A DNA stretch of 64,000 nt from positions 85,963-149,962 of the forward strand of contig MFXH01000018.1 of assembly GCA_001788795.1 (NCBI GenBank). Reading direction: 5' to 3'. The position numbers were made by a program, and so were the translations under genes. A model generated the notes under the pieces. That model saw nothing but the letters and a program-made list of their open reading frames with translations, ran no database searches and was not told the DNA's origin. This stretch comes from Candidatus Peregrinibacteria bacterium RIFOXYA2_FULL_41_18. GTDB lineage: Bacteria; Patescibacteriota; Gracilibacteria; UBA1369; UBA12470. Position 1 is the stretch's first letter. Each line of letters opens with the position of its first letter. Shown here one piece after another: positions 2,220 through 64,000 of the stretch.

Positions 2220-2239
2220 CCTAACGATTAAAGGAGAGT

Positions 2240-2268
2240 ATTGTAAAATAGACAGGGTGGTTTGTCAA
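2240..2268 (-). promoter_or_regulatory. sigma70-type promoter for the 717-aa ORF
   Basis: Minus strand TTGACA (2268-2263), 17-nt spacer, TACAAT (2245-2240), about 20 nt upstream of the ATG at 2219. Confidence 0.75.
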
Positions 2269-2294
2269 GCTGCTGTGTCTCTATTGCTTTTGTC

Positions 2295-4523
2295 TTATAT
2301 AAGCGGCTCCGCAAATTTCTCATCTCCTCCCGCTGCCGGACCACCATTCGCGTCGCCGATATCTCCACCTTCTTCCCATCTTTTCAAGATTTCGTTCACC
2401 TCAGCGACAGGACGAGCATATTTACTGCGGGAAATTGCACGAATCTCTTCTGTAAGATCCTCGACAGGTTTCGGTACATCAACCGTTCTTCCGGAGAACG
2501 CATCTCTTATCTGCCCATTGACCGACATTTTTGTATAAAATTCTCTTACACCCAAGTTAATAATATCTCGAACTGTGAATTTCGGCGTGTACTCTTTTTC
2601 CAAGATAACAGCATCTTCTGCGCCGACGCGGAAACTTATAATCGAACCTACGTTGCCAAATACTGTTGTTTTCACGAGGTCGTTAAGCTGCCCCATGTAC
2701 TGATGCGCCATCGTAACATTGAGCCTGTATTTGCGGGCTTCTGATAGTATCTCTGCAAATGTATCTGTTGCGAAATACTGAAACTCGTCGCAATACAGAT
2801 AAAAATCTTTTCTCTCATCTTCCGGAATATCCGCTCGCGACATGGCGGCTTGCTGAATTTTTGTCACCATCATGGCACCGATAAGTCCGCAGTTTTCTTC
2901 GCCAAGTTTTCCTTTTGAAATCTTCATGAGCAAAATTTTCTGTTGATCCATTAATTCACGAATATTTATCTTATTTTCCGGCTGACCGACTATATTTCTT
3001 ATAAGAGATGTTGAGACGAATTGACCTACCTTGTTTAGAAGTGGCATGATAGCTTCGTTATCGAATTTCTCACTCCAAGATGCGAATTCGTTTACCCAGA
3101 AGTTTTTGATTACCGAATCCTGAATGTTTGCGACAATTTTTTGACGGTAATTTTTATCTGAAAGCATCTTCAAAATCGAGAAAATCGTCGTCCTCGGAGA
3201 ATCGAGGAGAGCGAGTGTCGTATACCTGAGCACGTGCTCCAGACGAGGCGTCCAGTTGGCACCGAAAAGCTTATGGAAAATTTCCACGAAACCGATTGTG
3301 ACGCGAAGACGCAACTCGGGCGGTACCTGCTCGAGCGGATTGAAAGCTATCGGATACTCCGCATCTGCAGGATCAAAAAGCACAACATCACCTTTGCGTT
3401 CTTCCGGTACATATTTCAACACTGCATCGACGAGATCTCCGTGAGGATCGAGCACACCAACGCCTTTGCCCGCCAAAATATCGGATATAATCAAAAGCTC
3501 CAGCATTTTACTTTTACCAGTACCCGACTTGCCGACAACATATAAATGTCTGCGCCTATCGACTCTTTTTATACCGAACTTGATGTTTTGGTTGTGGTAA
3601 TTCGTGAATCCGAATGTGGACATTTCGCCCGGACCGAGTTTGCCTGCCTTCGGAAGATCTTGTGGTGGTTCGGCTTTTCGAGAAGTTACGTGAACTATAT
3701 GTGGAACTTCATCCGGATTGGGGAAATGATAAATCGTCGCAAGTTCTTCATCGCTCATGGTCATCGAGGCGCTGTATTTCAATGCACGACCTTGTTTTTC
3801 GAATGTATCTCTTGAGACTTTCCCGAATTTGAATTGATTTAATTCGATCGTATTGAATTGAGTGTAAGCCTTCACGAGTGATACTAATTTATCATTAGCT
3901 TTTTTCTGTGTTTTTGCCAAATAAGCAATTCTCATCCCGACTTTATATGCGTGTTTCTCGGATTTGCGCTTGAATGCTTCCGTCTCTTCTGCGCGAAGAT
4001 TTTTTATACCTTTCAGTTTAAATCTATCGCCTATGCGAAACATCCTCACAACTGCGTTTTTTTTCATTTTCCATCTTCTACCGAAGTTCAGCGAGAATCC
4101 TTCTTCAATAGGTTCCGCCAAAACCTGAATCCAGACCTCTTCCTCCGCATCAGCTTTCGCCAGAATCGAGAAAATGCCCGACAGCGAATCCCCTTCGAAT
4201 TTACCAAAAGTCTTGATCGGATAAATGTCCGACCTCTTCATGTAAACTTCCGCAGCCGCAAAACCGCCTTCTTTATGCTTAATGTATTCTTTTCCTTCCG
4301 AAATTTCAGCTGCCGGATAAAGTGCGTAAATCTGACCTTCTATAGCCGCCGCCGTATCCGATGGTGTGCGAATGAAAAAATAAATATGCTGGTCTATCGA
4401 AGCGATTTCAAGCCCTATAATCGTATGATGCAAAACTTCATGCATATTCACCAAAAGGTCTTCAAATACTTGGGCTTTGTTTTCTCCAACAGGAATACAG
4501 ATTTGTAAAAGTGAGGTTTCCAT
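2295..4523 (-). CDS. TraG/VirB4-like (type IV secretion coupling-type) ATPase
   Basis: Walker A VVGKSGTGKSKMLELL, Walker B-like FYLYCDEFQYFATDTFAEILSEARKYRLNVTMAHQY; DPHGDLVD motif. Confidence 0.8.
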   Translation of the reverse strand: METSLLQICIPVGENKAQVFEDLLVNMHEVLHHTIIGLEIASIDQHIYFFIRTPSDTAAAIEGQIYALYPAAEISEGKEYIKHKEGGFAAAEVYMKRSDIYPIKTFGKFEGDSLSGIFSILAKADAEEEVWIQVLAEPIEEGFSLNFGRRWKMKKNAVVRMFRIGDRFKLKGIKNLRAEETEAFKRKSEKHAYKVGMRIAYLAKTQKKANDKLVSLVKAYTQFNTIELNQFKFGKVSRDTFEKQGRALKYSASMTMSDEELATIYHFPNPDEVPHIVHVTSRKAEPPQDLPKAGKLGPGEMSTFGFTNYHNQNIKFGIKRVDRRRHLYVVGKSGTGKSKMLELLIISDILAGKGVGVLDPHGDLVDAVLKYVPEERKGDVVLFDPADAEYPIAFNPLEQVPPELRLRVTIGFVEIFHKLFGANWTPRLEHVLRYTTLALLDSPRTTIFSILKMLSDKNYRQKIVANIQDSVIKNFWVNEFASWSEKFDNEAIMPLLNKVGQFVSTSLIRNIVGQPENKINIRELMDQQKILLMKISKGKLGEENCGLIGAMMVTKIQQAAMSRADIPEDERKDFYLYCDEFQYFATDTFAEILSEARKYRLNVTMAHQYMGQLNDLVKTTVFGNVGSIISFRVGAEDAVILEKEYTPKFTVRDIINLGVREFYTKMSVNGQIRDAFSGRTVDVPKPVEDLTEEIRAISRSKYARPVAEVNEILKRWEEGGDIGDANGGPAAGGDEKFAEPLI

Positions 4524-35435: not shown

Positions 35436-35820
35436 AGAATTTGCTTCCGATGAAGTTCCAAAATAGAACGACTCCTATCGCACAAGCTTTTGCGATTAAA
35501 TCGTGCATTCCGAAACGATCCACAAGCGTATATAAAATCGCTTCGGAAAGTCCCAACCCGATTGTATAAACACTCGCGTATTTCGCAAATTGCATTCCAA
35601 CTTTTTTATGATTGCTTTTGAATGTAAATCTTCTGTTAAGAATATAGCTGTTCGCAAGCGCTATTATGAAAGATATTGCATTCGCCAAAAGATAATATTG
35701 CATGAAAAAATCCATCGTCCTGGTTAATGCAGTATAAGTACCGACATCAACAATTGTGCTTATGCCTCCGACTATGCAAAATTTTATAAATTGCCTGAAA
35801 TTTGGCGGTAACTTAATCAT
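35374..35820 (-). CDS. GtrA family membrane protein
   Basis: QFIKFCIVGGISTIVDVGTYTALTR...ANAISFIIALANSYILNRRFTFKS; probable start MIKLPPNF at 35820 (ORF track 35886). Confidence 0.88.
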   Translation of the reverse strand: MIKLPPNFRQFIKFCIVGGISTIVDVGTYTALTRTMDFFMQYYLLANAISFIIALANSYILNRRFTFKSNHKKVGMQFAKYASVYTIGLGLSEAILYTLVDRFGMHDLIAKACAIGVVLFWNFIGSKFFIFDRDSKKDLEAFSDSFPG

Positions 35821-37291
35821 TTTTATAAATTGAAACGACTCCTTGTTCAAAAACCGAATCGATGCCTTCCAGCATCTTGATTTCATCTTGCGATAACACT
35901 GTACCGTCTTGAATCATTAAATAGTCATGATCAAATAATTCTTCTGTAATTGACGTGCTTACGTTTTCCTTGTTGCCATCTCCATAAGCCAATATCCATT
36001 CATAAGATCTGAATGATGATGCTCCGCTTATATTATTCACCAACCAAAAATCCGCTCCTAAATCATTCAAGTATTGAGCAGATGCCAACTCGTCTTGCGT
36101 TATCGCTGGCTCGATTTCCGCTACCAGCAATCCTAAGAGAGCCGCTTGCCACAGCACTCCAACCGTCAATATCGCAAAACATATTTTTTTCAATTTAGGT
36201 ACTGATTTCATCATTTCGAATGCTAAGTACGCCGTCAAAATCGTCAGTATGATGAAATGGAACGCCTGATATCGATAAACAAATAAGCTCAGCCATATCT
36301 CATCAGGCACCAAGAAATTCGTCAGATTGACGATTATAAAAGATGGGATTGCAAGTCCGAGAATTTTCCAGTTTTGTTTGTAAAAAGCATAAATAAATCC
36401 CGCGAATCCGAGTATTATCAACACCGGTCCGTCAGTTATAATTCCGTAATGCCAAAACTGAGGAACTTTGTCATAAAACTTCAAATAATCTATCCATTCG
36501 GAAACCCAATACGTTCTCGTACCTGCCAGCACAAAAGGTATAAAAGTTGCCATGAATGCGACTACCGATATCAAAATCGTGTAAATTATCGTCGAAATCG
36601 TCTTTTCTCCAAGCACGCCTAAATCGAATTTTATCTCCGGAAGTTTTATGCGTGCATTTTTCAAAACTTTTATTCCAATCCATAGGCCGATCATCAAGCA
36701 TATCGTGAATAGAAATTGAACCGTATGGCTGCCGGCAACAAGGATCAAGGAGCAAGACACAAGGATCAGAGAAGATTTTTTGTTTTTCTCAAGATATTCA
36801 AGGTAGTAATAAATGGCGGGAATACTGAAAGCCATGGCGCAGACATTCGCCCAATTCCCTCCGAATAACAGGAAGTACAGCCTAAAATTAATTGCGTTAA
36901 ACAGTGTCGTTATAAGTGCGATATTTCTTGATCCTGTAAGTTTCTTAACAAGAAGATATAAATAAAAATTCGCCAAAACCAATAGAATGCCCAGCGCTCC
37001 TCCATTTATAACAATCCTTTCTCCAAAAATCTTAATAAATCCAGCCATGTAAACTATAGGTGCCGGCAAAAATTCGTTTATATGCGTTGCTTCATCCCCT
37101 TTTGCAGGGATGAAATCCTGCAGCTCCGCGAAAAAATCACCCGTATCAGCAAGCTGTTTCGATGTTTCAAAATATGTAAGACCGTCCGTTTGAGTTACAG
37201 GTAGTGGCGTCAAAAAAGTCGGATATAAAACAACTGCCAGATTTATGGCAAGGATTAAAATAAGCAAAATGTTTTGTCTGATTTTTCCCAT
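35813..37291 (-). CDS. multi-TM protein, GT-C/O-antigen-polymerase-like (unassigned)
   Basis: 492 aa, many TM helices, large C-terminal soluble part; in glycan locus. Confidence 0.65.
   Translation of the reverse strand: MGKIRQNILLILILAINLAVVLYPTFLTPLPVTQTDGLTYFETSKQLADTGDFFAELQDFIPAKGDEATHINEFLPAPIVYMAGFIKIFGERIVINGGALGILLVLANFYLYLLVKKLTGSRNIALITTLFNAINFRLYFLLFGGNWANVCAMAFSIPAIYYYLEYLEKNKKSSLILVSCSLILVAGSHTVQFLFTICLMIGLWIGIKVLKNARIKLPEIKFDLGVLGEKTISTIIYTILISVVAFMATFIPFVLAGTRTYWVSEWIDYLKFYDKVPQFWHYGIITDGPVLIILGFAGFIYAFYKQNWKILGLAIPSFIIVNLTNFLVPDEIWLSLFVYRYQAFHFIILTILTAYLAFEMMKSVPKLKKICFAILTVGVLWQAALLGLLVAEIEPAITQDELASAQYLNDLGADFWLVNNISGASSFRSYEWILAYGDGNKENVSTSITEELFDHDYLMIQDGTVLSQDEIKMLEGIDSVFEQGVVSIYKND
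36741..36775 (+). repeat. in-CDS heptamer array (AGGATCA/AGACACA)
   Basis: AGGATCA AGGAGCA AGACACA AGGATCA GAGAAGA; antisense codes SSLILVSCSLILVAG. Confidence 0.75.
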
Positions 37292-51322: not shown

Positions 51323-53263
51323 TTATTCCGTTTTGTAAATGATGTAATCACCATTGTCAAAAACCGCCTCAAGACCGGAATCGCTGAAAATATTGATGTT
51401 TTTTATTTCGGATACTGGAATGATTAAATAATCCACAAACGAATAACCATCTAAGACTTCCGAAATCCGCATTTCGTCATCCGCATTTAACAATAGTTGT
51501 TCCGCCTCCAGAATTTTCGTGATCGTATGATCTTCTCGATCTTTCGGACTCAGTTCTTCGTAATTCATATATGGCGAAAAACCCCAGCCTTCGAGCAGGT
51601 TTTGACGAGAGCATATAACCATACAGTCAAATGTGTTTTTGCGATTTTCGCCCGAGGCCATGCTCCATACAACACTGTCTTCGTCTGTATTTTCTTGTAT
51701 GAATTTATAAGCTTCATACTTCTCCGGTTCTATGTGTGTTTCCTTTGTTTTATCGCTAGTTATCGAGGCAAATCCTTTGTTTATCCCATACAATGCTCCG
51801 AAGCATATTTCTATGATTATTACTGCAACAAGCATGTTTTTTATCGTTTTGGATTTGATTTCCAAAACAAAATCTATAATCAGTATCCCAATTACCGCCG
51901 AAAAAGGAACGAACCAATAAAGGTTGACCCATCTCAATGGCGACAATATGAAAAGCGCCGTACCTAGTAAGAACCCTATCTTGATCAATCTGGTGATTTT
52001 GTCTTTTCTTTTGTCCAGTAGCCCTATGCATTTTATTCCTATCGTCCCTGTAATATATCCGCCAAGAAGTATCAGTGTCATCATCCATCCAACGGAATTT
52101 CCAAGCCACGTAATATCCTTAAACGAATACAATCCCAGTCCTCCATTCACCGACTCCTTTCCATAATAAATCATCCAGTATGCTATCAAAAATGTGAAGC
52201 CCGAAGGTATTGCTATTTTTAATAAGAATTTTTTATCAAAAAACAAAATGCCATATACAAATAACGCTCCGATATAAATCAAAGCTGTAGAGCCTTTTGC
52301 ACCTGTTAATCCAATAACTCCAATCAAATATAATACATATGACAGTTTATTTTCGGTTTTATTAAGAAGATATAGAAGTACAATGAAAAATAACATGCTT
52401 AAAGCCATTGTCGGAGATTCAATAATCCAATCTGTAAATGAACGCGACCCGATAGCAAATAAATAAGATAATCCTCCATACTTGATAACACTGCCTATAC
52501 CGAGTAGAACGCTTGCGCCTCCTCCGAGCGTTGCTAGAAACGATGATGCCAACGCCTTTGTATGATTTTCTGTAATTGCATATCCGAGTTTGGCAACCGC
52601 AAGAAATATCGCGCTTGTAATGAAATACGGGAAAAATCTGAAATATAAGAAACCTGTTTCGACACCTGTCAGCTTGGAGATTTCGGCAATCCAAATATGG
52701 AAAAAATAATGATATTTAAAAGTAGAATCTCGGAAATCGTAAACACTCCAATCTCCTATCGGGAAGTCGATCTTGAACATCTCTATCTTCCCCAAGTGGA
52801 AGAAAATATCATCCAAGCCGTCCAAGCTGTTACTCAATGCAGATAAATCTCCTATTGAATAGTTAAAAACAAGATTCGGAGACATTATAACGAGGACTGC
52901 CAGCAATCCGTTTATTATCGCAATATTTTCAACGGTCGTATCGTCTTCCCCGTTCTTGAATCGATCGTATAAGAAATAAATGTTTGCAATAAAAATCGGG
53001 ACCAATAGAATTGATATCTCTCCGAAATATTGAGCCGGTATGAAAAGTACAAGATTTATAATAATGCCGGCCATAAACACCACCGGTCCACCGGTCCGTT
53101 TCGCTATAATTTTACCTGGTACATATACAAATATCACCATGTATATTATCGACTTTACCCAGAGCCAAGCTGTTAAAGGAGCATTGTAAATGTCATATGC
53201 AAAAAATCCCCCGAGTATTGTCAACAAAATCGCAGTTATGTATTTGCTTGAGAGGAATTTCAT
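51323..53263 (-). CDS. large multi-TM protein, GT-C/GT39-like (unassigned)
   Basis: 646 aa, many TM helices with large extracytoplasmic C-terminal portion. Confidence 0.65.
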   Translation of the reverse strand: MKFLSSKYITAILLTILGGFFAYDIYNAPLTAWLWVKSIIYMVIFVYVPGKIIAKRTGGPVVFMAGIIINLVLFIPAQYFGEISILLVPIFIANIYFLYDRFKNGEDDTTVENIAIINGLLAVLVIMSPNLVFNYSIGDLSALSNSLDGLDDIFFHLGKIEMFKIDFPIGDWSVYDFRDSTFKYHYFFHIWIAEISKLTGVETGFLYFRFFPYFITSAIFLAVAKLGYAITENHTKALASSFLATLGGGASVLLGIGSVIKYGGLSYLFAIGSRSFTDWIIESPTMALSMLFFIVLLYLLNKTENKLSYVLYLIGVIGLTGAKGSTALIYIGALFVYGILFFDKKFLLKIAIPSGFTFLIAYWMIYYGKESVNGGLGLYSFKDITWLGNSVGWMMTLILLGGYITGTIGIKCIGLLDKRKDKITRLIKIGFLLGTALFILSPLRWVNLYWFVPFSAVIGILIIDFVLEIKSKTIKNMLVAVIIIEICFGALYGINKGFASITSDKTKETHIEPEKYEAYKFIQENTDEDSVVWSMASGENRKNTFDCMVICSRQNLLEGWGFSPYMNYEELSPKDREDHTITKILEAEQLLLNADDEMRISEVLDGYSFVDYLIIPVSEIKNINIFSDSGLEAVFDNGDYIIYKTE

Positions 53264-54069
53264 TTTTTACGAGCGATAATATAGAAGTTCGCCGCTATCA
53301 CTTTTGAAAATGGGATTTTAATCAAAATCAGATCCATAAATTTAAACGGCCATAATATAAGCATGAAAATTATCGTCCAAATTTCATATAACTGCTTAAT
53401 TCCGAAACTTAAAAGTATCGATAAGAAGTCTATTGTTATGCATAAAAATGCGCTTGTCGGACCGGATTGAATTCCGACTTCTATAACTTCCAGCCCATGT
53501 CGCTCGAACATTTTGCGCAATCCTTCGTGAGTCCATCTCGTAAAATCATACGGACTCGCGTGAAATCCGAAAACAAACGGAGTTGTAAAAAAACATTCTC
53601 CACCTTTCTTAAGGACTCTAGCTGTTTCCGCAATAGCTACTTCAGGGTTGTCGACATGCTCCAGTACCGCGACGCTCAATGCGGCATCAGCAGATGCGCT
53701 TTTAACCGACATGCTTTTCAAATCCGTAACTATATCCACATTCTTATAATTAAAAAGATCCACATTTATTATATGTTCTCCAATTCTTTTATTCCCTGAT
53801 CCCAGATTCAATACTACCCCCTCCTTATGATTGCCAATAAATCTTTTTAAATACCCTTCGTTCGGACAAATCGGACTTAGTATTTTTATAATAAAATAGT
53901 AAAGTTTTTCATTTTTTTTTACAAATTCTTTAAGGGAAGTAATCACAGATTTCTCTGTAGCTTCTTTGTGACTATTTTTAATCACTATTCGGTGATCTAT
54001 AACCTTTCCATCTACTAACGATGATTTATCTCTATCCATAATCTCGTTCAGATTTTTTTCTTTATCCAT
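53260..54069 (-). CDS. SAM-dependent methyltransferase
   Basis: GVVLNLGSGNKRIGEHIINVDLFNYKNVDIVTDL; DAALSVAVLEHVDNPEVAIAETARVLKKGGECFFTTPF. Confidence 0.88.
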   Translation of the reverse strand: MDKEKNLNEIMDRDKSSLVDGKVIDHRIVIKNSHKEATEKSVITSLKEFVKKNEKLYYFIIKILSPICPNEGYLKRFIGNHKEGVVLNLGSGNKRIGEHIINVDLFNYKNVDIVTDLKSMSVKSASADAALSVAVLEHVDNPEVAIAETARVLKKGGECFFTTPFVFGFHASPYDFTRWTHEGLRKMFERHGLEVIEVGIQSGPTSAFLCITIDFLSILLSFGIKQLYEIWTIIFMLILWPFKFMDLILIKIPFSKVIAANFYIIARKK

Positions 54070-55189
54070 TTGTTATTGTGTTAACCGTATCAATAACATA
54101 TTTCACTTCTTTGTCGGATAGTTTTATGTAGAAAGGTAGTGTTATAGTCGAGTCTCCTATTTTTTCGGATATCGGAAATGATCCTTTTTTGTATCCATAT
54201 TTTTCACGATAATATTTCATCAAGTGTATAGGCCTGAAATTAACTGCTACTCCAATCCCCGCGTCTTGAAGAAGGTGCATATACTCATCTCTTTTATCCC
54301 GATCAACCCAAATCGTATAAAGATGCCGCGCGTGTTTGCCACCAGATATAACGGCAGGGGTTTTTATATTTTTATTTTTCAGAAATCCCTTATCGTATTT
54401 GCGAGCCAATTTCTCGCGCATATCCAAATACCCTTCTATTCTGTCCAGTTGTTTCACCATAAGAGCCGCTTGGATATTGCTCATATTGCATTTATTGCCC
54501 AGAAATTCCATGTCATAATGTTCATATTTTTTCGAATATCTTGTCGCAGCGTTTTTACTCATGCCGTGCTGGCGCGCACGAAGCATCCATTCATATATTT
54601 TTTTGTCATTGCATGATATAGCCCCTCCCTCTCCGGATGTAAGATTCTTTGTCGCATAAAAACTGTAGCAAGCGATATCACCGAGCTGTCCGACTTTTAT
54701 TCCATCTCTTTCCCCTTCCAAGCAATGCGCCGCATCTTCTATCACTTTTAATTTGTATTTGTCTGCAATTTTTCTTATACGCTTCATGTCACACATTTGG
54801 CCGTACAAATGTACTACTATTATCGCTTTTGTTTTTTTCGTTATTGCTTGCTCTATCAAGCTTGCATCAATGTTCCCCGTATTCGACTCAACGTCCACAA
54901 AAACCGGCTTGGCGCCTGCGTATTCTATTGCGTTAGCCGTAGCGATAAATGACATCGGCGTTGTTATCACTTCGTCTTCATGCCCGATTCCGAAGTATTT
55001 CACCGCAAGTTCGAGCGCATTCGTACAAGATGTCAGACCGACCGCGTATTTACTCCCTACGTATTTAGCGAGTTTTTTTTCAAATTCAGCAACGCAATCT
55101 CCTGTGGTAAGGAAAAGCGAGTTTAAAACTTTTATAACTTCATCCTTGTCTTCCTTTGCTAAATTGTGCCTGTAGAATTCGATTTTCAT
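54062..55189 (-). CDS. DegT/DnrJ/EryC1/StrS aminotransferase
   Basis: TSCTNALELAVKYFGIGHEDEVITTPMSFIATANAIEYAGAKPVFVD; VIEDAAHC; YSFYATKNLTSGEGG with Lys; start MKIEFYRHNL at 55189 preferred. Confidence 0.92.
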   Translation of the reverse strand: MKIEFYRHNLAKEDKDEVIKVLNSLFLTTGDCVAEFEKKLAKYVGSKYAVGLTSCTNALELAVKYFGIGHEDEVITTPMSFIATANAIEYAGAKPVFVDVESNTGNIDASLIEQAITKKTKAIIVVHLYGQMCDMKRIRKIADKYKLKVIEDAAHCLEGERDGIKVGQLGDIACYSFYATKNLTSGEGGAISCNDKKIYEWMLRARQHGMSKNAATRYSKKYEHYDMEFLGNKCNMSNIQAALMVKQLDRIEGYLDMREKLARKYDKGFLKNKNIKTPAVISGGKHARHLYTIWVDRDKRDEYMHLLQDAGIGVAVNFRPIHLMKYYREKYGYKKGSFPISEKIGDSTITLPFYIKLSDKEVKYVIDTVNTITNG

Positions 55190-55200
55190 ATGAAGAATCT

Positions 55201-56235
55201 TTAATACATTTCTACCTTCCCATCTTCGGTTCTTATGGGAACTTGCTTCATCCATTCCAACTCGCTCCACCAATCTTTATTATTCTTGTACCAATCGATT
55301 GTTTTTATAATACCTTCTTCAAGATTCGTTTTTGCTTTCCAATTCAGCAGCTTTTCCGCTTTTTCCGTAGATGAGATGTGACGCTCGACTTGTCCCGGCC
55401 TATCGAATATATATTTAATCATATTTTCCGGTTTGCCCAGCTGCTTCAATATTATTTTCGCTATATCCATAACGCTTACGGCCCTTTCTGTTCCTATGTT
55501 TATAACTTGTTGCCGTATACTCGAAAAATCCGGGAGATTAAGCGCTTGATCGATTGCTTCGCAATGATCTTGCACATATAACCAATCGCGCTCTGCCAAC
55601 CCTTGCCCGTGTACTGTCAAAGGCTCATCTTTCAATGCGCTTGTTATAAATCTTGGCATCATCTTTTCCAAGTGCTGATTCGGTCCGTAATTGTTAAACG
55701 GTCTTATGATCATAACCGGCAGGTCGTAAGTACACCAGTACGAATAGACGAGCCTGTCTGCTCCGGCTTTCGCCCCAGCGTAAGGCGATCTTGGATTCAA
55801 TATATGTTCCTCATCCATCAATTCTTTTTCCGCAGTCCCATAAACTTCCGATGTTGAAATGTGTATGAATCTTTCTACCGTGTTCTTATGTTTGGTAAGC
55901 GCATTCATCATCGTTTGAGTACCGATCACATCAGTTTCGAAGAATTTGCTGTCGTCGTAAATCGACCTCGCGACATGGCTTTCGGCGGCAAAATGCACTA
56001 TTAAATCAGCTCTTTTCGTAAGCGAATCCACAAGATCTGCGTTTGTCACCGACCCATGCCAAAACTCATATCTTTTTGAGTTTTTTATTTGTTCGGGAAT
56101 GTTGTTTTGATTGCCGGCATAAGTGAGGGCATCAAGTACGAGAAAATGATAATCAGGATATCTATCGAACATGTATTTCAGAAAATTACTCCCTATAAAT
56201 CCCGCCGCGCCAGTTAATAAAACTTTTTTTTTCAT
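55201..56235 (-). CDS. dTDP-glucose 4,6-dehydratase-like SDR
   Basis: VLLTGAAGFIGSNFLKYMFDRYPDYHFLVLDALTYAGNQNNI; FAAESHVARSI; SPYAGAKAGADRLVYSYWCTYDLPVMIIRPFNNYGPNQH. Confidence 0.9.
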   Translation of the reverse strand: MKKKVLLTGAAGFIGSNFLKYMFDRYPDYHFLVLDALTYAGNQNNIPEQIKNSKRYEFWHGSVTNADLVDSLTKRADLIVHFAAESHVARSIYDDSKFFETDVIGTQTMMNALTKHKNTVERFIHISTSEVYGTAEKELMDEEHILNPRSPYAGAKAGADRLVYSYWCTYDLPVMIIRPFNNYGPNQHLEKMMPRFITSALKDEPLTVHGQGLAERDWLYVQDHCEAIDQALNLPDFSSIRQQVINIGTERAVSVMDIAKIILKQLGKPENMIKYIFDRPGQVERHISSTEKAEKLLNWKAKTNLEEGIIKTIDWYKNNKDWWSELEWMKQVPIRTEDGKVEMY

Positions 56236-56240
56236 AGTGT

Positions 56241-56936
56241 TTAAGCCTTTAAAATGCTAAGTGATTTTTTGCCACAATTAAACAGCAAGTCGATTATACT
56301 CAAATATGGCAAAAATTTCCCGTGCAATTGATTATATTCCGGATGTTTATATCCGTGATACTTAAGTTCTATGTTTTCTTTTTTGAACATTTCCTCATTC
56401 ATATATGATTTCGCGCTGTCACCGGTAAGATAGGTTGTTGCATTAAATTTTTTGCATATATTCACCAAATGTTCCGTTGAATCGTTGTAATTTGTTATCC
56501 CCAATCCCGAACTTTTTACAAACTGTACGTGTTTTATGCCGAGATATTCCGATAATTCTCTTGTTAATTCGCAATTTAAATCTGAAAGGTATTCATATTT
56601 TTCCAATAAATGGCGCTCTAATATCGGAAAAACTTCTGGGAAAAATTCCGCCGAGCGATAATTTTCTTTTATCAAACCCAAATGCGACTTCTCCCAGCAT
56701 TTGTTATCGTAATGTATTTTTATATCCTTGATAAGCGCATCATAATTGCCCTTTGCCTCTACCGGCACTGTCAGATATTTTTCTTCTCCTTTTGTCGTTT
56801 TTATTCTGTTTCGATTGCGCCAATCTCTTCTCGTATACTGCACGTCATCAAAAAAAACAAACACATCCGACTTATTTATCTGATCAAAATATCCGATCCA
56901 TGGGATGTAAGAAGGTTGTAATATTGTTACTCTCAT
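56241..56936 (-). CDS. WbqC-like family protein
   Basis: MRVTILQPSYIPWIGYFDQINKSDVFVFFDDVQYTRRDWRNRNRIKT. Confidence 0.92.
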   Translation of the reverse strand: MRVTILQPSYIPWIGYFDQINKSDVFVFFDDVQYTRRDWRNRNRIKTTKGEEKYLTVPVEAKGNYDALIKDIKIHYDNKCWEKSHLGLIKENYRSAEFFPEVFPILERHLLEKYEYLSDLNCELTRELSEYLGIKHVQFVKSSGLGITNYNDSTEHLVNICKKFNATTYLTGDSAKSYMNEEMFKKENIELKYHGYKHPEYNQLHGKFLPYLSIIDLLFNCGKKSLSILKA

Positions 56937-57553
56937 TTTTTTCTGATTAATACTGTATATTCGTACAAAGGGTAGCTGTGAATTATGTCCACGTATTTGT
57001 ATTTTTTTATCATTATTTTCAGCATTTTTCCCGGATTCATATAAAACAAATGTTTTGCTTTGAAATCTACATGACTTGTCATTAAATTGAATCCGATTCC
57101 TTTGTTTACGTTCTTGTACAGCTTATCTATTTCGCTTAATACATATGCGTACCAATTCTCGTCGCTAAAGCTGTGCTTAACCGTAAAAGTCCCACTTGCC
57201 ACACAGTAATCCGATTTCGCGTTTATATCTAATATTTTTGTCGAAAACGAGCAGTTTTTTTCTTTGGGAAATTTATTTTTGGCAAAATCCACCATCTCTT
57301 TCGACAAATCCACTCCATTATATTTTATTTTTCTGTATTTATTTTTAAGATAAATGAAATAGTCGCCTTTCCCACATCCATAATCCAATATTGAAAATTT
57401 TTCATCCATAAAAAACATATGATCGAAGCTTTTAAAACGAATTAACTGCGACTTTTTATCTTTCCAATCCACCCCCTTTGGCGTATCACCATATTCGAGG
57501 ATTTTATTGCTGTAATATTTTGCTATTATTTTTTTATCTATATTCGTTGTCAT
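56933..57553 (-). CDS. SAM-dependent methyltransferase
   Basis: FSILDYGCGKGDYFIYLKNKYRKIKYNGVDLSKEMVDFAK. Confidence 0.85.
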   Translation of the reverse strand: MTTNIDKKIIAKYYSNKILEYGDTPKGVDWKDKKSQLIRFKSFDHMFFMDEKFSILDYGCGKGDYFIYLKNKYRKIKYNGVDLSKEMVDFAKNKFPKEKNCSFSTKILDINAKSDYCVASGTFTVKHSFSDENWYAYVLSEIDKLYKNVNKGIGFNLMTSHVDFKAKHLFYMNPGKMLKIMIKKYKYVDIIHSYPLYEYTVLIRKK

Positions 57554-58473
57554 ATTTTTTCAAGCAAGGCTAATCCACAACCGGTTTTCCCATAATCATT
57601 ACCATTATATAGCATGTATTTTTGATTCCTATGCTCAAATACGCATGGATAACAAATCATTTCCGAATCCCACCCTGTCGAAGAAACATCTATCCCCACT
57701 TGATTATCTTTCCTTATCCATTGCAATCCATTTTTTGATTCCGCATATCCGGCCCTATATGTATTTTTACCTCCGCGATAGCAATACCACATTTTGTATA
57801 AGCCATCTTCTTTATAAACCACTGGGCGAGCAATTGCGTATTCTTGTTTCTTATAAAAAATACAATCTATATTTTTTGGTGTCCATTTTAAACCGTCACG
57901 TGATTCGGCATATTTGATATGATAATAATGTTTTGAAGGCCAATCTTTTTTATTGAGTTGCCATCCTATACATGAGACATACCACATTCTCCAAATGTTG
58001 TTTTCTTTTATCACGAAAGGAGAAGCTGTCATAAAAGGATCATTTTCGCTTCTGTCCAGTATGGGAATTTGCGAGTATTTTTTGTAAGTTTTGCCATTAT
58101 CTTCACTAACAGCCAGACCTATATAAAAAGCGAACGGTGTCTTAACTTTTTGAGTCCACCCCGTATAGTACATATATTTCTTATCGCCATTGTTTACAAT
58201 ACAAGAAGGCATTGCGCCACAATCATCAAAACAACCCGGCTTGCCTATGTCTATCGTAGGTGTTTTGCTCCAGGAGATAATCTCATGAGGGTTTTTGATG
58301 TCCAGCAAAACGTATCCTCCGCGAGAGTAATTGTTTTTATCACGACCGGCGAAATGAATTTTAAAGATATCTCCTTCCACATGTTCCTGGAAAGGATTTT
58401 GGATATTGGTTTTTATCCATTTGTATTTTCCGGGTTCTATAATCCGTCCTAATTTAATCCAGTTGAATTTCAA
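57550..58473 (-). CDS. five-bladed beta-propeller glycosidase-like protein (GH43/GH130-like)
   Basis: Repeated blades KKYMYYTGW, WRMWYVSC, LYKMWYCYRGG, KYMLYNGNDYG. Confidence 0.75.
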   Translation of the reverse strand: MKFNWIKLGRIIEPGKYKWIKTNIQNPFQEHVEGDIFKIHFAGRDKNNYSRGGYVLLDIKNPHEIISWSKTPTIDIGKPGCFDDCGAMPSCIVNNGDKKYMYYTGWTQKVKTPFAFYIGLAVSEDNGKTYKKYSQIPILDRSENDPFMTASPFVIKENNIWRMWYVSCIGWQLNKKDWPSKHYYHIKYAESRDGLKWTPKNIDCIFYKKQEYAIARPVVYKEDGLYKMWYCYRGGKNTYRAGYAESKNGLQWIRKDNQVGIDVSSTGWDSEMICYPCVFEHRNQKYMLYNGNDYGKTGCGLALLEKI

Positions 58474-58483
58474 ATAAAATCAG

Positions 58484-59155
58484 TTAAATATTCATAAAAG
58501 CACTAAACTTCTCGCTATCCATAGGGTATGGCTTAGTAGGTTGAGCTATATATACGGATTTATCTTTGGTATTGTTTAAAATTAAAGCCCCTGCACCGAT
58601 AAGGCATTCTTTTCCGATTTGAATATGATCGCGAAGTGTTGCATTAACACCTATGAAACTTGATTCTCCAATCTTCACTCCTCCACTAACCACCACATGT
58701 GACGAAATCCATGCATGATCTCCTATTTCCACGTCATGTCCAAAATGATTTCCGCTCCAGATAACCACATCATTGCCAATCTTTATATTCGACTGGAACA
58801 CTTGATTCTCCAATATAAAACAATTGTCTCCCATCTTTGTATCTCCGTATTGAATCGATTTAGAACTTACGAAACTTATCAATTTATATCCTTTTCCCTT
58901 TGCCTCTTTGTATTTTTTCTGACGAATAGCATTTAATTTCGCATAACCCACGGCTACGAACATGTCGTATTCGCTTGGTGGATATTTTTTTTCAACATCT
59001 TCAAATGGTACAACCGGCAAACCAAGAAATTTATCTTCTTTTATATATTCTTTATCGCTTGTGAAAGCTACTATCTGGTGATCGCTATCGTGTGTCAGAT
59101 AAAAATGGACCATTTCTCCCATCTTGCCTGTCCCGAATATGATTATTTTTTTCAT
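58484..59155 (-). CDS. NeuD/PglD-like sugar acyltransferase
   Basis: Rossmann-like N-term IIIFGTGKMGEMVHFYL then hexapeptide repeats, GKECLIGAGALILNNTKDKSVYIAQPTKPYP. Confidence 0.88.
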   Translation of the reverse strand: MKKIIIFGTGKMGEMVHFYLTHDSDHQIVAFTSDKEYIKEDKFLGLPVVPFEDVEKKYPPSEYDMFVAVGYAKLNAIRQKKYKEAKGKGYKLISFVSSKSIQYGDTKMGDNCFILENQVFQSNIKIGNDVVIWSGNHFGHDVEIGDHAWISSHVVVSGGVKIGESSFIGVNATLRDHIQIGKECLIGAGALILNNTKDKSVYIAQPTKPYPMDSEKFSAFMNI

Positions 59156-59288
59156 AAGTTTTTTCGGGTTAGTTTAGATAAATTTTACGGAATCTGCCAG
59201 TTTTTTTGCAATTACAGATACAATTGCATTTAAGCACCAATTTCGATTTGTTGTATAAACGTTTTTCTGCGCTGATAAATCATATTTG

Positions 59289-59630
59289 TTAATTAATTAT
59301 CAATGCTTGCGCCATTGCGATTTCTCTTGAATGAGACAGGCTTATTTTACACTTAAACTTGTGTTTTCGCCCTATGAGATTCACTTCCGGCTTTCCATTG
59401 GTTCCGTTTATGATTTCTATTTTATTGAAAGGCACGCTCTCGCCATAGCACATCAAGGCTTTTAAAACCGCTTCTTTCGCCGCAAACCTAACCGCAAAGT
59501 GCTGTGCGTGCGAACGTCTGGATATGCAATATTCCACCTCTTTTTTTGTAAATATTTTCGCAAGCAATCGCTTGTTTTTTTCTATTCCTTTGAATCTGCA
59601 AATATCAACGCAATCTATTCCGATTTCCAT
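59289..59630 (-). CDS. acpS: holo-[acyl-carrier-protein] synthase (phosphopantetheinyl transferase)
   Basis: MEIGIDCVDICRF and VRFAAKEAVLKAL. Confidence 0.93.
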   Translation of the reverse strand: MEIGIDCVDICRFKGIEKNKRLLAKIFTKKEVEYCISRRSHAQHFAVRFAAKEAVLKALMCYGESVPFNKIEIINGTNGKPEVNLIGRKHKFKCKISLSHSREIAMAQALIIN

Positions 59631-59632
59631 TT

Positions 59633-60358
59633 TTACATTGTTAAGCCACCATCAAGCTGGAGAATTTTACCGTGAAAGAAGTCGTTTTTTATTATAAAAA
59701 TTATTCCATCCGCAATTTCCTCCGGCTTTGCCATGCGTCTAAGCGGTGTGCGTTTCTCCCAATCGCTCTTTATCTTCTCGTTCATGGAATATTGCGCGAT
59801 TTTTGTAAGCGTAAATCCCGGCGCAATTCCTGCGACCCGTATCCCAAGCAGGTTCAATTCATTTGCCCATGTTTTGGTTAGAGCATCTATCCCGGCTTTT
59901 GCGGCAGCGTATGCTGACTGGCCCGGATTCCCATTTGCAACGATCGAGCTGACATTCACTACGACTCCTTTTGTTCTTTTTTGAAACATTTTTTCCACGA
60001 CCTCTCTCGTCATATAAAAAACTGACGTCAGGTTGGTCGCAAGTATTTTGTTCCATATCTCAATGTCATGTTTTTTCAACTGTCCGAAAATACTCAATAG
60101 CGGCGCGTCTTTCACTATTCCAGCATTGTTTACCAATGCATCTATACTTCCGTTGTCGCCAAAGAACTTTTCAACTTGCGCTTCTACATTTTGCAGATCG
60201 CTTACGTCGCATTTGTAGAATTTCGCCCCTTGAAAATCCGGTTCGTTTATATCAAAAACTCCGACATTCGCACCCTCTTCGATCAATTTTGTCGCAAGTG
60301 CTTTTCCTATCCCACTTGCGCCTCCTGTTACGATTATATTTTTACCTTTTATGTCCAT
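59633..60358 (-). CDS. 3-oxoacyl-ACP reductase-like SDR
   Basis: NIIVTGGASGIGKALA; NVSSIVANGNPGQSAYAAAKAGIDALTKTWANEL; LQLDGGL. Confidence 0.9.
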   Translation of the reverse strand: MDIKGKNIIVTGGASGIGKALATKLIEEGANVGVFDINEPDFQGAKFYKCDVSDLQNVEAQVEKFFGDNGSIDALVNNAGIVKDAPLLSIFGQLKKHDIEIWNKILATNLTSVFYMTREVVEKMFQKRTKGVVVNVSSIVANGNPGQSAYAAAKAGIDALTKTWANELNLLGIRVAGIAPGFTLTKIAQYSMNEKIKSDWEKRTPLRRMAKPEEIADGIIFIIKNDFFHGKILQLDGGLTM

Positions 60359-60361
60359 TGT

Positions 60362-60595
60362 TTAATTTTTTACATTCTGGGATTCTAGAATTTTTTTTAT
60401 ATCACCGAAGCTTGTCATTTTCATTAGATTATCCGTATCTATACTTATACCAAATCTCTCTTCTATCATTGCTATCAGCTGAAGATGGCTTAGCGAATCC
60501 CATGCCTCCATATTGTTCATTCCTGAATCATCGTTTATTTCTTCTCTTTTTACGCCGAATATTTCGGCCATGATTTCTTTCAGTTTTTCTTCCAT
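60362..60595 (-). CDS. acyl carrier protein
   Basis: AWDSLSHLQLIAMIEERFGISI, phosphopantetheine Ser in DSL. Confidence 0.9.
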   Translation of the reverse strand: MEEKLKEIMAEIFGVKREEINDDSGMNNMEAWDSLSHLQLIAMIEERFGISIDTDNLMKMTSFGDIKKILESQNVKN

Positions 60596-62149
60596 TTATG
60601 TGTAATTTTTGATATAAAATTCTTTGAGTATGCGGTAAAGTACTTTTTTGGTCGGTCCTTTTGGTATTTCATCCGTAATTATTATCTTTTTTGCTTGTTT
60701 GTATTGGGCTATTTTCCCCTTGCAAAAAACCTTAAGCTCTTCTTCGGTTGCTGTAAGATTATCATGCAGCTTAACAAATGCGCAAATATCTTCTCCAAGC
60801 AGTTTATCTGGAATGCCTATAACTGCACTTTCTGCAACAGCCGGATGTCTAAACAAAACATTTTCCAGTTCGGCCGGATAAATATTTTCACCTCCTTTTA
60901 TAATTAAGAAATCTTTTCTCGTCTTGAAATAGAAATAATTGTTTGCATCCCTGTATCCATAATCTCCGGAATGAAACCATCCGTTGCGAAAAGCTTTTTT
61001 ATTTTTCTCTTCCAATCCAAGATATTCTTTTGCCACATTCAATCCTCTGATACATATCTCTCCTTCTTGATTCGGACCGAGTTCGTTATCCAAGTCATCA
61101 ACTATAGTCATTTCATTAACAGGCAGCGGTCTGCCTACAGATCCTTGTCTCCTGTTATCTGCCGGATAATCATTGAAACATGCAAATGATGTCGTTTCTG
61201 TTAGTCCGAATCCTTCGAAAATCGGGACCTTGAATCTTTTTTCGAAATCCTTTTGTACGCTAGGTATAAGTATTTGCCCTCCGCAAAATATTCCTTGCAT
61301 AGTACTATCCGTTCTTTCTATCTTCAAGCTTAGCAGAATCGATAGAATTGATGGCATTACGCTTGTCCAATTTATTTCATATTTTTCCGCGAGCCCCCAA
61401 AAAGACATCAAGCTCGCTTTTCCTTTCACTATCACTGTCGATCCTCCAGTGTATAACGGATTCAGTAGCGTCATTACCTGTCCGTTGTTATGAAATAACG
61501 GAAGTATGCATAACGTCCTTGTGTTCTCAGTAAATTTAAACCACCCCGACACCGCACAAGCATCCGCCAGCAAGTTAAGATGCGTAAGGACAACTCCTTT
61601 AGGGTTGCCCGTTGTCCCAGAAGTGTAAATTATCACAGCTTCATCGTACAATTCTATGTTCGGAAGATTCACGGATTCTTTTTGAGGTTTCTTCAAGTCT
61701 TCCGTGTTTACGAACGCGACTTCGTTAAATCGCATATCGGATATCTTATGCTCGTATAGAGGATCATAAAAAACATATTTCGATCCGCTGTTTTTTATTA
61801 TGAATTCCATCTCCGGCGGAGATAAGTCCTGATTAATCGGAACTATTACGATTCCACTCATCAATCCGGCAAAATAAAAGCATACGAATTCCGACGAATT
61901 TGGAATAATTAAACTTATTCTATCCCCTTTTTTAAGATCTTTGGATTTGAGATAATTAACAGTTTCGAATATGCGCGATTGTAATTGCTTGTAAGTATAA
62001 ATTTCTTCATCTTTTCCAGGACAGAATAAAAATTCTTTGTTCGGCGAAGATTGTGCATGCGAATTAAAAAGATCTCCTACGTTTTTATACCGAATCGGCA
62101 TGTCGGTTTTTATACGTTGATGCGCCGGTATTTTCGCCGGATCAATCAT
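60596..62149 (-). CDS. AMP-dependent acyl-CoA/acyl-ACP ligase
   Basis: IIYTSGTTGNPKGVVLTH; GFGLTETTSF; GWFHSGDYGYRDANNYFYFKTRKDFLIIKGGENIYPAELE; PKGPTKKVLYR. Confidence 0.94.
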   Translation of the reverse strand: MIDPAKIPAHQRIKTDMPIRYKNVGDLFNSHAQSSPNKEFLFCPGKDEEIYTYKQLQSRIFETVNYLKSKDLKKGDRISLIIPNSSEFVCFYFAGLMSGIVIVPINQDLSPPEMEFIIKNSGSKYVFYDPLYEHKISDMRFNEVAFVNTEDLKKPQKESVNLPNIELYDEAVIIYTSGTTGNPKGVVLTHLNLLADACAVSGWFKFTENTRTLCILPLFHNNGQVMTLLNPLYTGGSTVIVKGKASLMSFWGLAEKYEINWTSVMPSILSILLSLKIERTDSTMQGIFCGGQILIPSVQKDFEKRFKVPIFEGFGLTETTSFACFNDYPADNRRQGSVGRPLPVNEMTIVDDLDNELGPNQEGEICIRGLNVAKEYLGLEEKNKKAFRNGWFHSGDYGYRDANNYFYFKTRKDFLIIKGGENIYPAELENVLFRHPAVAESAVIGIPDKLLGEDICAFVKLHDNLTATEEELKVFCKGKIAQYKQAKKIIITDEIPKGPTKKVLYRILKEFYIKNYT

Positions 62150-62385
62150 TTATTTATATAGTAAGATATTATTTCCGTCATGCCCTTAACAGATGTCATC
62201 TTAAGAGATTTTTGAAATTCAATTTCTATGCCGAAAGTTTTTTCTACCGCAACCAACAGTTGAAGGTGCTTGAGAGAATCCCACTCCGGAACGACCTCCA
62301 TCGACAAATCCTCGTTGAAGTTTTTTATCTCAAGAACTTCCTGAAATACTTCTTCGATTCTTTTAAGTATATATTCTTCATTCAT
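62146..62385 (-). CDS. acyl carrier protein
   Basis: EWDSLKHLQLLVAVEKTFGIEIEF with DSL Ser. Confidence 0.9.
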   Translation of the reverse strand: MNEEYILKRIEEVFQEVLEIKNFNEDLSMEVVPEWDSLKHLQLLVAVEKTFGIEIEFQKSLKMTSVKGMTEIISYYINK

Positions 62386-63304
62386 TCTCGGAAAAATGTT
62401 TAATTATTTTTTCCGCAGCAGCCATTGCCATATCTCTTCGGCATTCTTTCGTTGCCGTACCGATATGTGGAGTAATTATGCAGTTCTCCATCTTGCATAA
62501 CAGATGGTCTGCTGAAATCGGTTCGGGATCTGTAACATCCAATACCGCTCCTCTTATTTCTCCGTTTTTTAGAGCATTCAAAAGATCTTCCGTTTTTATT
62601 ATTTGTCCTCTTGAAAAATTTATTAAAATCGGACGTTTCGACATTTTCCTAATCGATTCCGCGTTTATCATCCCTCTTGTTTGCTCGGTAAGCGGAACAT
62701 GCAACGATATATAGTCCGATTCGCTAAGTAATTCTTCCAGTGTAACCGCCTTGCAGCAATCTGATACAACCGGTGATCTGTTGAAATATATCACATTCAT
62801 ACCGAATCCGAGAGCGCGCTTCGCCACAGCCATTCCTATTCTTCCAAATCCTATAATTCCAAATGTTTTACCCGTAAGCTCTTCACCAAGCAGTATTTCA
62901 GGATCCCATGCTTTCCATTTTCCTTCTCTGACAAATTCGCGTGCCGGCCAAAGTTTTCTGGCAAGTGCCAAGAATGATGCCATAGTAAGGTCGGCCGTAC
63001 TGTTCGTGACCGAATCTGGGATATTGTAAACATAAATGCCTTTTGTTTTTGCATGTTCCATATCTATGTTATCCAATCCTGATGCGTAGCTTGAGATCAC
63101 CTTAAGTTTCGGCAGCGAATCAATAACTTCTTTTGTGAATTTATCCAAAACGGTTGATAACACGGCGTCGCAATCTTTTAAGCTTCTTATCAGCTCGTCT
63201 TGCGTTAATGTTTCGTTTTTATCGTTCAGGCTAACCTCAAAATGCTCTTTCAATATCGTCCTGGCGATTTCCGGCATTCTTCTTGTGATGAAAACTTTTT
63301 TCAT
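62378..63304 (-). CDS. D-isomer-specific 2-hydroxyacid dehydrogenase
   Basis: GKTFGIIGFGRIGMAVAKRALGFGMNVIYF; LINFSRGQIIKTEDLLNAL; NCIITPHIGTATKE. Confidence 0.93.
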   Translation of the reverse strand: MKKVFITRRMPEIARTILKEHFEVSLNDKNETLTQDELIRSLKDCDAVLSTVLDKFTKEVIDSLPKLKVISSYASGLDNIDMEHAKTKGIYVYNIPDSVTNSTADLTMASFLALARKLWPAREFVREGKWKAWDPEILLGEELTGKTFGIIGFGRIGMAVAKRALGFGMNVIYFNRSPVVSDCCKAVTLEELLSESDYISLHVPLTEQTRGMINAESIRKMSKRPILINFSRGQIIKTEDLLNALKNGEIRGAVLDVTDPEPISADHLLCKMENCIITPHIGTATKECRRDMAMAAAEKIIKHFSENE

Positions 63305-63996
63305 TTTTTTATTACTTTGCTTATTTTTTCTATTCCTTTCTCTATCAAGTCGCTATTTTTCACAAGCGGACCATAGCAAAGCCTTACCCCTTCTATCAGT
63401 GTTCTCCCGAACCCCCATCCTGGAACCAAAAGCACTCCCTGTTGCTTAATCGTTTCTTCCACGAATTTCGCTCCGTCCATATCTGTTTTCAATACTGTAT
63501 ATAATCCTCCTTGCGGTTGCAGACGAGGGATTCCCAGATATTTATCTATTGCTTTTATTGTAATGTCAGCAGCCTGTTTGTAAGCATTTTTTGCAGATTC
63601 TATATAGGGTTTCATTTCGTTTTTTGCAATCGCATCATTTATATATTTCGCCAGAGCCATTTCGTGCAGCATATCTGGGCATAAAATCGACGAACCTTGT
63701 ATGCTTTCCATTGCTTCGACCACAAATTCCGGTGCGAAAATCCATCCCAACCTTCTTCCCAATCCCCTGCACCATTTCGAATTCGAATGTATGGAAATAA
63801 AATTATCGTTATGGCTCCATGAAAAATATTTCGGATACTCCTCGAAAACAAGATGCTTATATGCGAAATCAATAATCAAAAAACTACCTATCTCTTCCGC
63901 CGCTTTCAATCCGGCTTCTATAAATTTATCCGACAATATTTGAGATGTCGGATTATCCGGAGACGTTAGCAATATCACTTTCGGTTTATGCTCCAA
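63301..63996 (-). CDS. class I/II PLP-dependent aminotransferase, probably truncated by the window edge
   Basis: LLTSPDNPTSQ; FLIIDFAYKHLVF; SNSKWCRGLGRRLGWIFAP; real start probably lies beyond 64000. Confidence 0.88.
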   Translation of the reverse strand: MEHKPKVILLTSPDNPTSQILSDKFIEAGLKAAEEIGSFLIIDFAYKHLVFEEYPKYFSWSHNDNFISIHSNSKWCRGLGRRLGWIFAPEFVVEAMESIQGSSILCPDMLHEMALAKYINDAIAKNEMKPYIESAKNAYKQAADITIKAIDKYLGIPRLQPQGGLYTVLKTDMDGAKFVEETIKQQGVLLVPGWGFGRTLIEGVRLCYGPLVKNSDLIEKGIEKISKVIKK

Positions 63997-64000
63997 TATA

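Follow-up and report, generated by a model that had tools for sequence, protein, structure and literature searches.

The gene cluster described here, which lies at the end of a contig of Candidatus Peregrinibacteria bacterium RIFOXYA2_FULL_41_18, probably produces, for a surface glycan, a 4-amino-4,6-dideoxy sugar that is N-acylated with a small acid borne by a dedicated acyl carrier protein (ACP), a reading that we hold with moderate confidence. It draws on the synteny of 12 genes with a genome of another family, on the absence of ketoacyl synthase (KAS) from a genome that has its AcpS and detected ACPs solely in this locus and that carries CoaE, on the order of ACP and ligase in Eleftheria terrae, on a histidine that the NeuD-like enzyme shares with PglD, on the occurrence of the sugar genes in glycan loci elsewhere, on the distribution of the ligase and WbqC among related genomes, and on published glycan islands of comparable content.

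Layout and gene content of the locus

The window, that is, the whole stretch of 64,000 nucleotides that was analysed, ends exactly where the contig does, at position 64000, and the outermost gene, an aminotransferase, is thereby truncated. Family searches of the translated open reading frames (ORFs) recovered all eleven genes that the original prediction had placed in a single minus-strand run (56241-63999), with their families as described and their catalytic motifs conserved, and the tight spacing also held: neighbouring genes are separated by -8 to +10 nt, the sole exception being the 133 nt that separate acpS from the NeuD-like gene. The conserved unit is broader than this run and reaches down to 54062, so that it also takes in the 4,6-dehydratase gene and the DegT aminotransferase gene, the start of the latter being placed at the ATG of MKIEFYRHN. 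A promoter scan gave fewer matches than were obtained in shuffled sequence and is uninformative. The genes, all on the minus strand, are:

63301..63999, minus: PLP class I/II aminotransferase (PF00155), N-terminal part missing at the contig end
62378..63304, minus: D-2-hydroxyacid dehydrogenase (2-Hacid_dh), closest to glyoxylate/hydroxypyruvate reductases
62146..62385, minus: ACP1, 79 aa, serine site PEWDSLKH; weak NCBIfam ACP matches
60596..62149, minus: AMP-forming acyl ligase (adenylation enzyme), 517 aa; PF00501 and PF13193 (AMP-binding, AMP-binding_C)
60362..60595, minus: ACP2, 77 aa, serine site EAWDSLSH; PF00550 (PP-binding)
59633..60358, minus: FabG-like SDR; family match and motifs
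59289..59630, minus: AcpS, holo-ACP synthase; ACPS family match and motifs
58484..59155, minus: NeuD/PglD/VioB-type sugar N-acyltransferase; TIGR03570 (NeuD_NnaD) above the curated cut-off, PglD_N and Hexapep
57550..58473, minus: beta-propeller protein related to GH130/GH43-type enzymes; weak similarity
56933..57553, minus: class I SAM methyltransferase; family match
56241..56936, minus: WbqC family protein (PF08889)
55201..56235, minus: RmlB-like nucleotide-sugar 4,6-dehydratase; family match, syntenic in GW2011_GWA2_33_10
54062..55189, minus: DegT nucleotide-sugar 4-aminotransferase (PseC/WecE-like); family match, syntenic in GW2011_GWA2_33_10

The locus divides in two: an acyl half, made up of the aminotransferase, ACP1, the ligase, ACP2, the FabG-like SDR and AcpS, and a sugar half, made up of WbqC, the methyltransferase, the NeuD/PglD-type acyltransferase, the propeller, the dehydratase and the DegT enzyme. 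In the acyl half, both ACPs retain the DSL serine, each within W-D-S-L, and AcpS retains its signature motifs (GxD, F-A-AKEA-xxK and SxSH), as had been predicted; the SDR retains TGG-x3-GIG, the Ser and YxxxK. ACP1 itself has no Pfam match, and its orthologue in Candidatus Peregrinibacteria GW2011_GWA2_33_10 passes PF00550. In the sugar half, a histidine of the NeuD-like enzyme aligns with that of PglD and of perosamine N-acetyltransferase, and the 4,6-dehydratase, the DegT 4-aminotransferase and this NeuD/VioB-type N-acyltransferase together form a viosamine-type set. RmlB enzymes carry the motif TDEVYG; the dehydratase has TSEVYG and scores 337 on the RmlB model against a cut-off of 365, so the sugar nucleotide, dTDP-glucose or another, is uncertain. 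The label "glycosidase-like" given earlier to the propeller stands in part, there being a similarity to beta-1,2-mannobiose phosphorylase and GH43-type enzymes, albeit a weak one. For WbqC, the structure prediction was poor (mean pLDDT 45.5), a sequence search of solved structures returned no WbqC relative, and the literature on its function yielded nothing useful.

Conservation and genomic setting

GW2011_GWA2_33_10, which belongs to another family of the same taxonomic order, has twelve of the genes in identical order, with an overall protein identity of 63%; such conservation across families argues that the block is not a product of chance. Its aminotransferase orthologue is full length (415 aa, 62% identical), its ligase is 68% identical, and AcpS and the NeuD-like gene again adjoin, there 12 nt apart. 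The block includes the 4,6-dehydratase and DegT genes and is without the 2-hydroxyacid dehydrogenase, which is missing from the whole 34-kb contig and is thus not a conserved member. Alanyl-tRNA synthetase is 66% identical between the two genomes, close to the 63% of the cassette, and a recent transfer between them is therefore not indicated; the sharing may reflect either inheritance or an older transfer. Among 89 genomes of the order, the ligase was found in two and WbqC in five, and both ligase-bearing genomes carry WbqC in the same run. The contig of GW2011_GWA2_33_10 extends past the point at which the present one ends, and a scan of the genes around its block showed neither a fatty acid synthesis (FAS) gene nor a condensing enzyme; there, too, the ACP genes are linked with glycan genes. 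A genome-wide scan with the acyl ligase alone as query gave no match, an alignment of the two ligases as query matched only the GW2011_GWA2_33_10 relative and distant ligases, and a search of a phage collection returned generic ligases only; plasmid-borne relatives of the aminotransferase, at merely 23-27% identity, are uninformative.

In the host genome (1.24 Mb, 99% complete), profile searches with working controls found neither a ketoacyl synthase (PF00109) nor KAS III (PF08545), and we take the host to lack fatty acid synthesis. Its single AcpS lies in this locus, as do all the carrier proteins detected by PF00550, and CoaE, which is present, provides the final step in CoA synthesis. Among CPR genomes bearing AcpS, KAS I/II (PF00109) is missing in 12 of 12, KAS III (PF08545) is missing in this genome and five others, and in most of those examined AcpS lies near ligase or ACP genes.

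Proposed function and competing explanations

The 4,6-dehydratase and the DegT enzyme would supply an NDP-4-amino-4,6-dideoxyhexose, while AcpS, with CoA, would convert ACP1 and ACP2 to their holo forms. The ligase may then adenylate a ready-made small free acid, prepared by the aminotransferase and, in this genome, perhaps by the 2-hydroxyacid dehydrogenase, and load it onto ACP1; the FabG-like SDR could reduce or oxidise the bound group, perhaps on ACP2, before the NeuD/PglD-type enzyme would pass it to the 4-amino group of the sugar, to be finished by the methyltransferase, the propeller and WbqC. The acid may be a hydroxyacyl or aminoacyl group, as proposed earlier, but the hydroxyacyl assignment rested mainly on the 2-hydroxyacid dehydrogenase, which is missing in GW2011_GWA2_33_10. 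Characterised PglD/VioB-type enzymes are acetyltransferases that use acetyl-CoA, and an ACP as donor for a NeuD-like enzyme would be an extrapolation from LpxA/LpxD-type hexapeptide enzymes; the equal resemblance of the ligase to CoA and to ACP ligases also counts against the acyl-sugar reading.

The two halves might instead be independent, the acyl half building some other ACP-bound product (small amides and lipid head-group modifications are examples) and simply lying beside a WbqC/NeuD module in a glycan island. We consider this unlikely, though some findings favour it: the widest gap, of 133 nt, falls exactly between the halves, plasmid glycan loci have the sugar module without ACP genes, so that its NeuD need not use an ACP, and the best non-CPR relative found for the ligase, an ACP-AMP-ligase fusion of Eleftheria terrae (44% identical), sits in a cluster of natural-product rather than glycan type, with thioester-reductase, FkbH and FAAL genes. 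Against independence stand the AcpS-NeuD junction kept in two families and the want of a condensing enzyme among the genes scanned around the GW2011_GWA2_33_10 block, although, the acyl half being present in two genomes only, the halves are linked by a single conserved arrangement. The Eleftheria fusion has its ACP domain ahead of the ligase, matching the order of ACP1 and ligase here, but is a single protein with WTSL in place of WDSL.

Scavenging of host-derived fatty acids for membrane lipids, with the ligase acting as an acyl-ACP synthetase (AasS/Aas-like), we regard as improbable. AasS is among the ligase's relatives of solved structure, and fusions of AMP-ligase, ACP and PlsC adjoin AcpS in other CPR genomes lacking KAS (PlsC coupling in G260, G258 and G220); the acyltransferase of the present run, however, is of the NeuD/PglD type and not the PlsC type, its neighbours in both genomes are sugar enzymes, and scavenging would require neither two ACPs nor an SDR. 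That ACP, AcpS and a FabG-like SDR are by family parts of FAS could suggest a degenerate type II synthase, but this explanation is largely refuted, and to our mind very improbable, given the KAS searches above and remaining members that are all sugar or activation genes.

Related loci and implications

The acyl-sugar reading gains from published islands. In Aeromonas, the group II flagellin glycosylation islands carry ACP, 3-oxoacyl-ACP reductase, AMP-dependent synthetase, LuxE and LuxC, and those of Enterobacteriaceae likewise have ACP, a FabG-like gene and AMP-synthetase (PMC7874193, PMC4875605). The present locus has in common with them an ACP, a FabG-like SDR and an AMP-dependent synthetase together within a glycan locus; it differs in its two ACPs, its own AcpS, its aminotransferase, its WbqC/methyltransferase/NeuD/propeller module and its FAS-less host, and neither LuxE nor LuxC was found among the families of the run. 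A locus in another CPR genome (L019 in G285), with ACP-FabG-ligase-LuxE-LuxC and AcpS, fits the Aeromonas-type set better. Vibrio cholerae O1 has tetronate genes whose product is 2,4-dihydroxybutanoate on perosamine; outside these genes, its rfb cluster differs from the Patescibacterial locus. The tetronate genes, as presented in the accessible parts of two reports, comprise the RfbK carrier and the RfbL/WbeL ligase, which are presumed to activate the small hydroxy acid that acylates perosamine (PMC12208996, PMC3441752). The likeness lies in a dedicated ligase and carrier, which here adjoin amino-sugar genes, and, on the reading proposed here, in the attachment of a small acid to an amino group on a 4-amino-4,6-dideoxy sugar; those parts mention no AcpS, and the aminotransferase, SDR and second ACP are features of the Patescibacterial locus.

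A glycan module that recurs in Alphaproteobacteria and Bacteroidota, WbqC-[GT2]-methyltransferase-NeuD-propeller, carried on plasmids of Rhizobium, Peteryoungia, Azospirillum and Bernardetia, is similar to the sugar half; the two share four families (NeuD is 42-51% identical, the propeller 34-48%), four of the five loci have RmlB-like and/or DegT genes close by, and no relative of the ACP, ligase or AcpS was found within the 24-kb stretches examined. The cassette, once called self-contained, is so only in part, because its sugar half resembles a separate module. The combination was likewise thought unusual: the ACP, FabG-like and AMP-synthetase set and the pairing of ligase and carrier have published counterparts, while the presence of AcpS within the cassette, a second ACP and a FAS-less host remain unusual, and the literature yielded no such set with its own AcpS in a host that cannot make fatty acids.

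The presence of ACP and AcpS is commonly read as a sign of fatty acid synthesis. Since the AcpS-bearing CPR genomes examined lack KAS and mostly have AcpS near ligase or ACP genes, such genes can mislead metabolic reconstructions; they also point to the use of CoA and free acids at the CPR cell surface. We tentatively propose, the case being finely balanced, that FAS-free Patescibacteria acquired or kept holo-ACP chemistry solely for the decoration of surface sugars, the gene for the phosphopantetheinyl transferase being included in the same operon. If this is true, ACP would no longer be coupled to lipid synthesis, and the existence of an acyl-ACP-dependent transferase of the NeuD/PglD family would be implied, for which the locus would offer a compact system in which to study acyl transfer from ACP to sugar.

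Extent and composition of the cassette

The run that the original prediction had read as a self-contained acyl-activation cassette within a glycan locus comprises eleven genes at 56241–63999, all on the minus strand, and window position 64000 is the end of the contig (the window being G000:C18:85963-149962, where G000 is the source genome). Intergenic gaps range from −8 to +10 nt, with the sole exception of 133 nt between acpS and the gene for the NeuD-like acyltransferase, and the gene families are confirmed by Pfam and NCBIfam profile matches, so that the predicted reading frames, spacing and family assignments are all borne out. The genes are thus as originally given, but the boundary is not: the conserved unit is wider and reaches down to 54062, since the corresponding block of a relative from another family of the same order, Ca. 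Peregrinibacteria GW2011_GWA2_33_10 (G384), also includes a 4,6-dehydratase and a DegT gene. This unit can be divided into an acyl half (aminotransferase, the carrier proteins ACP1 and ACP2, AMP-ligase, FabG-like SDR and AcpS) and a sugar half (NeuD-like acyltransferase, propeller protein, methyltransferase, WbqC, 4,6-dehydratase and DegT). Elsewhere in the window, large glycan-island ORFs at 35813–37291 and 51323–53263 have no Pfam match, and two large minus-strand ORFs lie at the opposite end from the cassette (66–4523), one of them matching T4SS-DNA_transf/HerA-type proteins.

AcpS retains the motifs GxD, AKEA and SxSH, the SDR retains TGGxxxGIG and YxxxK, the usual adenylation motifs are present in the ligase, and W-D-S-L occurs in both carrier proteins. 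ACP1 and ACP2 represent distinct lineages, both of which are kept in the source genome and in G384; ACP1 itself is without a Pfam match and gives weak matches to NCBIfam ACP models, and its G384 orthologue passes PF00550. The histidine of the FGHD motif in the NeuD-like protein aligns with a histidine of PglD and of perosamine N-acetyltransferase, which serves as the catalytic base in these enzymes.

Conservation of the cassette and host fatty acid synthesis

A close relative of the ligase was found in 2 of the 89 genomes of the order, the second being G384 (contig LBOO01000011.1), in which the block runs aminotransferase-ACP1-ligase-ACP2-SDR-AcpS-NeuD-propeller-methyltransferase-WbqC-dehydratase-DegT, the same gene order as in the source genome, with an FG-GAP ORF between ACP2 and the SDR. 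This relationship places the source genome among the Peregrinibacteria within CPR. This interrupting ORF encodes an 883-aa FG-GAP repeat protein on the opposite strand (L031:11961-14612, on the G384 stretch). The 2-hydroxyacid dehydrogenase is missing from the G384 block and has no copy elsewhere on its 34-kb contig. Upstream of the block lie a glyoxalase-family gene, a GT2 gene and an EamA-like gene, none of which is a fatty acid synthesis gene. Identity between the two cassettes is 49–76% per gene and 63% overall, and, with AlaRS itself 66% identical between the two genomes, these sequence comparisons do not indicate a recent exchange of the cassette.

In the original prediction the arrangement looked unusual, above all if the host lacks fatty acid synthesis, and the genome-wide profile search agrees with such a lack: the ketoacyl synthase profiles PF00109 and PF08545 (KAS III) found no match in the source genome (1.24 Mb, 99% complete), and the positive controls worked. 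AcpS is present there as a single copy, the only PF00550 match across the genome is ACP2 of the cassette, with the neighbouring ACP1 falling below the model threshold, and CoaE was found both there and in G384. Across the phylum, AcpS occurs in 11 of 380 genomes, and ketoacyl synthase is absent from all 11 as well as from G384, where absences carry less weight as that genome is 86% complete. Published Peregrinibacteria (Peribacteria) genomes are likewise without fatty acid synthesis, except for fabG (PMC4736985).

Relationship of the two halves and a proposed pathway

Plasmid searches using NeuD, WbqC and the propeller protein of the cassette as queries returned WbqC-[GT2]-methyltransferase-NeuD-propeller runs on plasmids of Rhizobium sp. 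Q54, Peteryoungia, Azospirillum, Rhizobium N731 and Bernardetia, and most of the five have DegT or RfbB genes close by. These runs (L100, L101, L102, L103 and L104) make up an unnamed recurrent glycan module of Alphaproteobacteria and one Bacteroidota, of which we found no published account. The sugar half of the cassette resembles this module. A tblastn comparison of the whole cassette with the 24-kb plasmid stretches gave no relative of the ACPs, the ligase, the SDR or AcpS, and on that basis we read the acyl half as an addition to the glycan module, seen in the two Peregrinibacteria. The best ligase relative found outside CPR, a 612-aa Eleftheria protein with 44% identity, has an ACP domain fused ahead of the ligase, which supports ACP1 as the probable partner of the ligase.

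In the pathway that we infer from the protein families, the dehydratase and DegT would produce an NDP-4-amino-4,6-dideoxyhexose, and the ligase would charge holo-ACP with a preformed small acid, which the SDR would adjust and the NeuD-like enzyme would transfer to the amino group of the sugar. A 2-oxo or 2-hydroxy acid would be consistent with the aminotransferase and, in the source genome, the dehydrogenase, although the latter is not conserved. The earlier interpretation, in which an ACP-bound hydroxyacyl or aminoacyl group is passed to a sugar, is supported in part, its hydroxy-acid clue being weakened by the absence of that gene from the G384 block.

Carrier-protein chemistry in known systems and in other CPR

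Group II flagellin islands of Aeromonas contain an ACP, a 3-oxoacyl-ACP reductase, an AMP-synthetase, LuxE and LuxC (PMC7874193), and similar gene sets occur in islands of Enterobacteriaceae (PMC4875605). For Vibrio cholerae O1, the activation of 2,4-dihydroxybutanoate, perhaps onto the carrier RfbK, is attributed to RfbL (PMC12208996), and V. cholerae wbeL is required for normal O antigen (PMC3441752).

Within CPR, an ACP-FabG-ligase-LuxE-LuxC-AcpS-hexapeptide run in one genome (G285, L019:4591-10640) is close to the Aeromonas flagellin-island set, with AcpS as an extra. A second genome (G266, L025:9878-14960) carries an AcpS-FkbH-ACP-MaoC-SDR-SDR-MBOAT run with sugar-nucleotide genes near and a GDP-mannose-dehydratase-like gene adjoining, which looks like glyceryl-ACP chemistry supplying an O-acyltransferase. 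At four loci (L021, L023, L024 and L027, in G260, G258, G252 and G220), all in genomes free of ketoacyl synthase, AcpS adjoins a large AMP-ligase protein, which proved to be an AMP-ligase-ACP-PlsC fusion in all three of those scanned, an arrangement suggesting that scavenged fatty acids are recycled via ACP. Taken together, the G285, G266 and ligase-ACP-PlsC loci therefore indicate that carrier-protein chemistry without fatty acid synthesis is recurrent in CPR and takes several forms.
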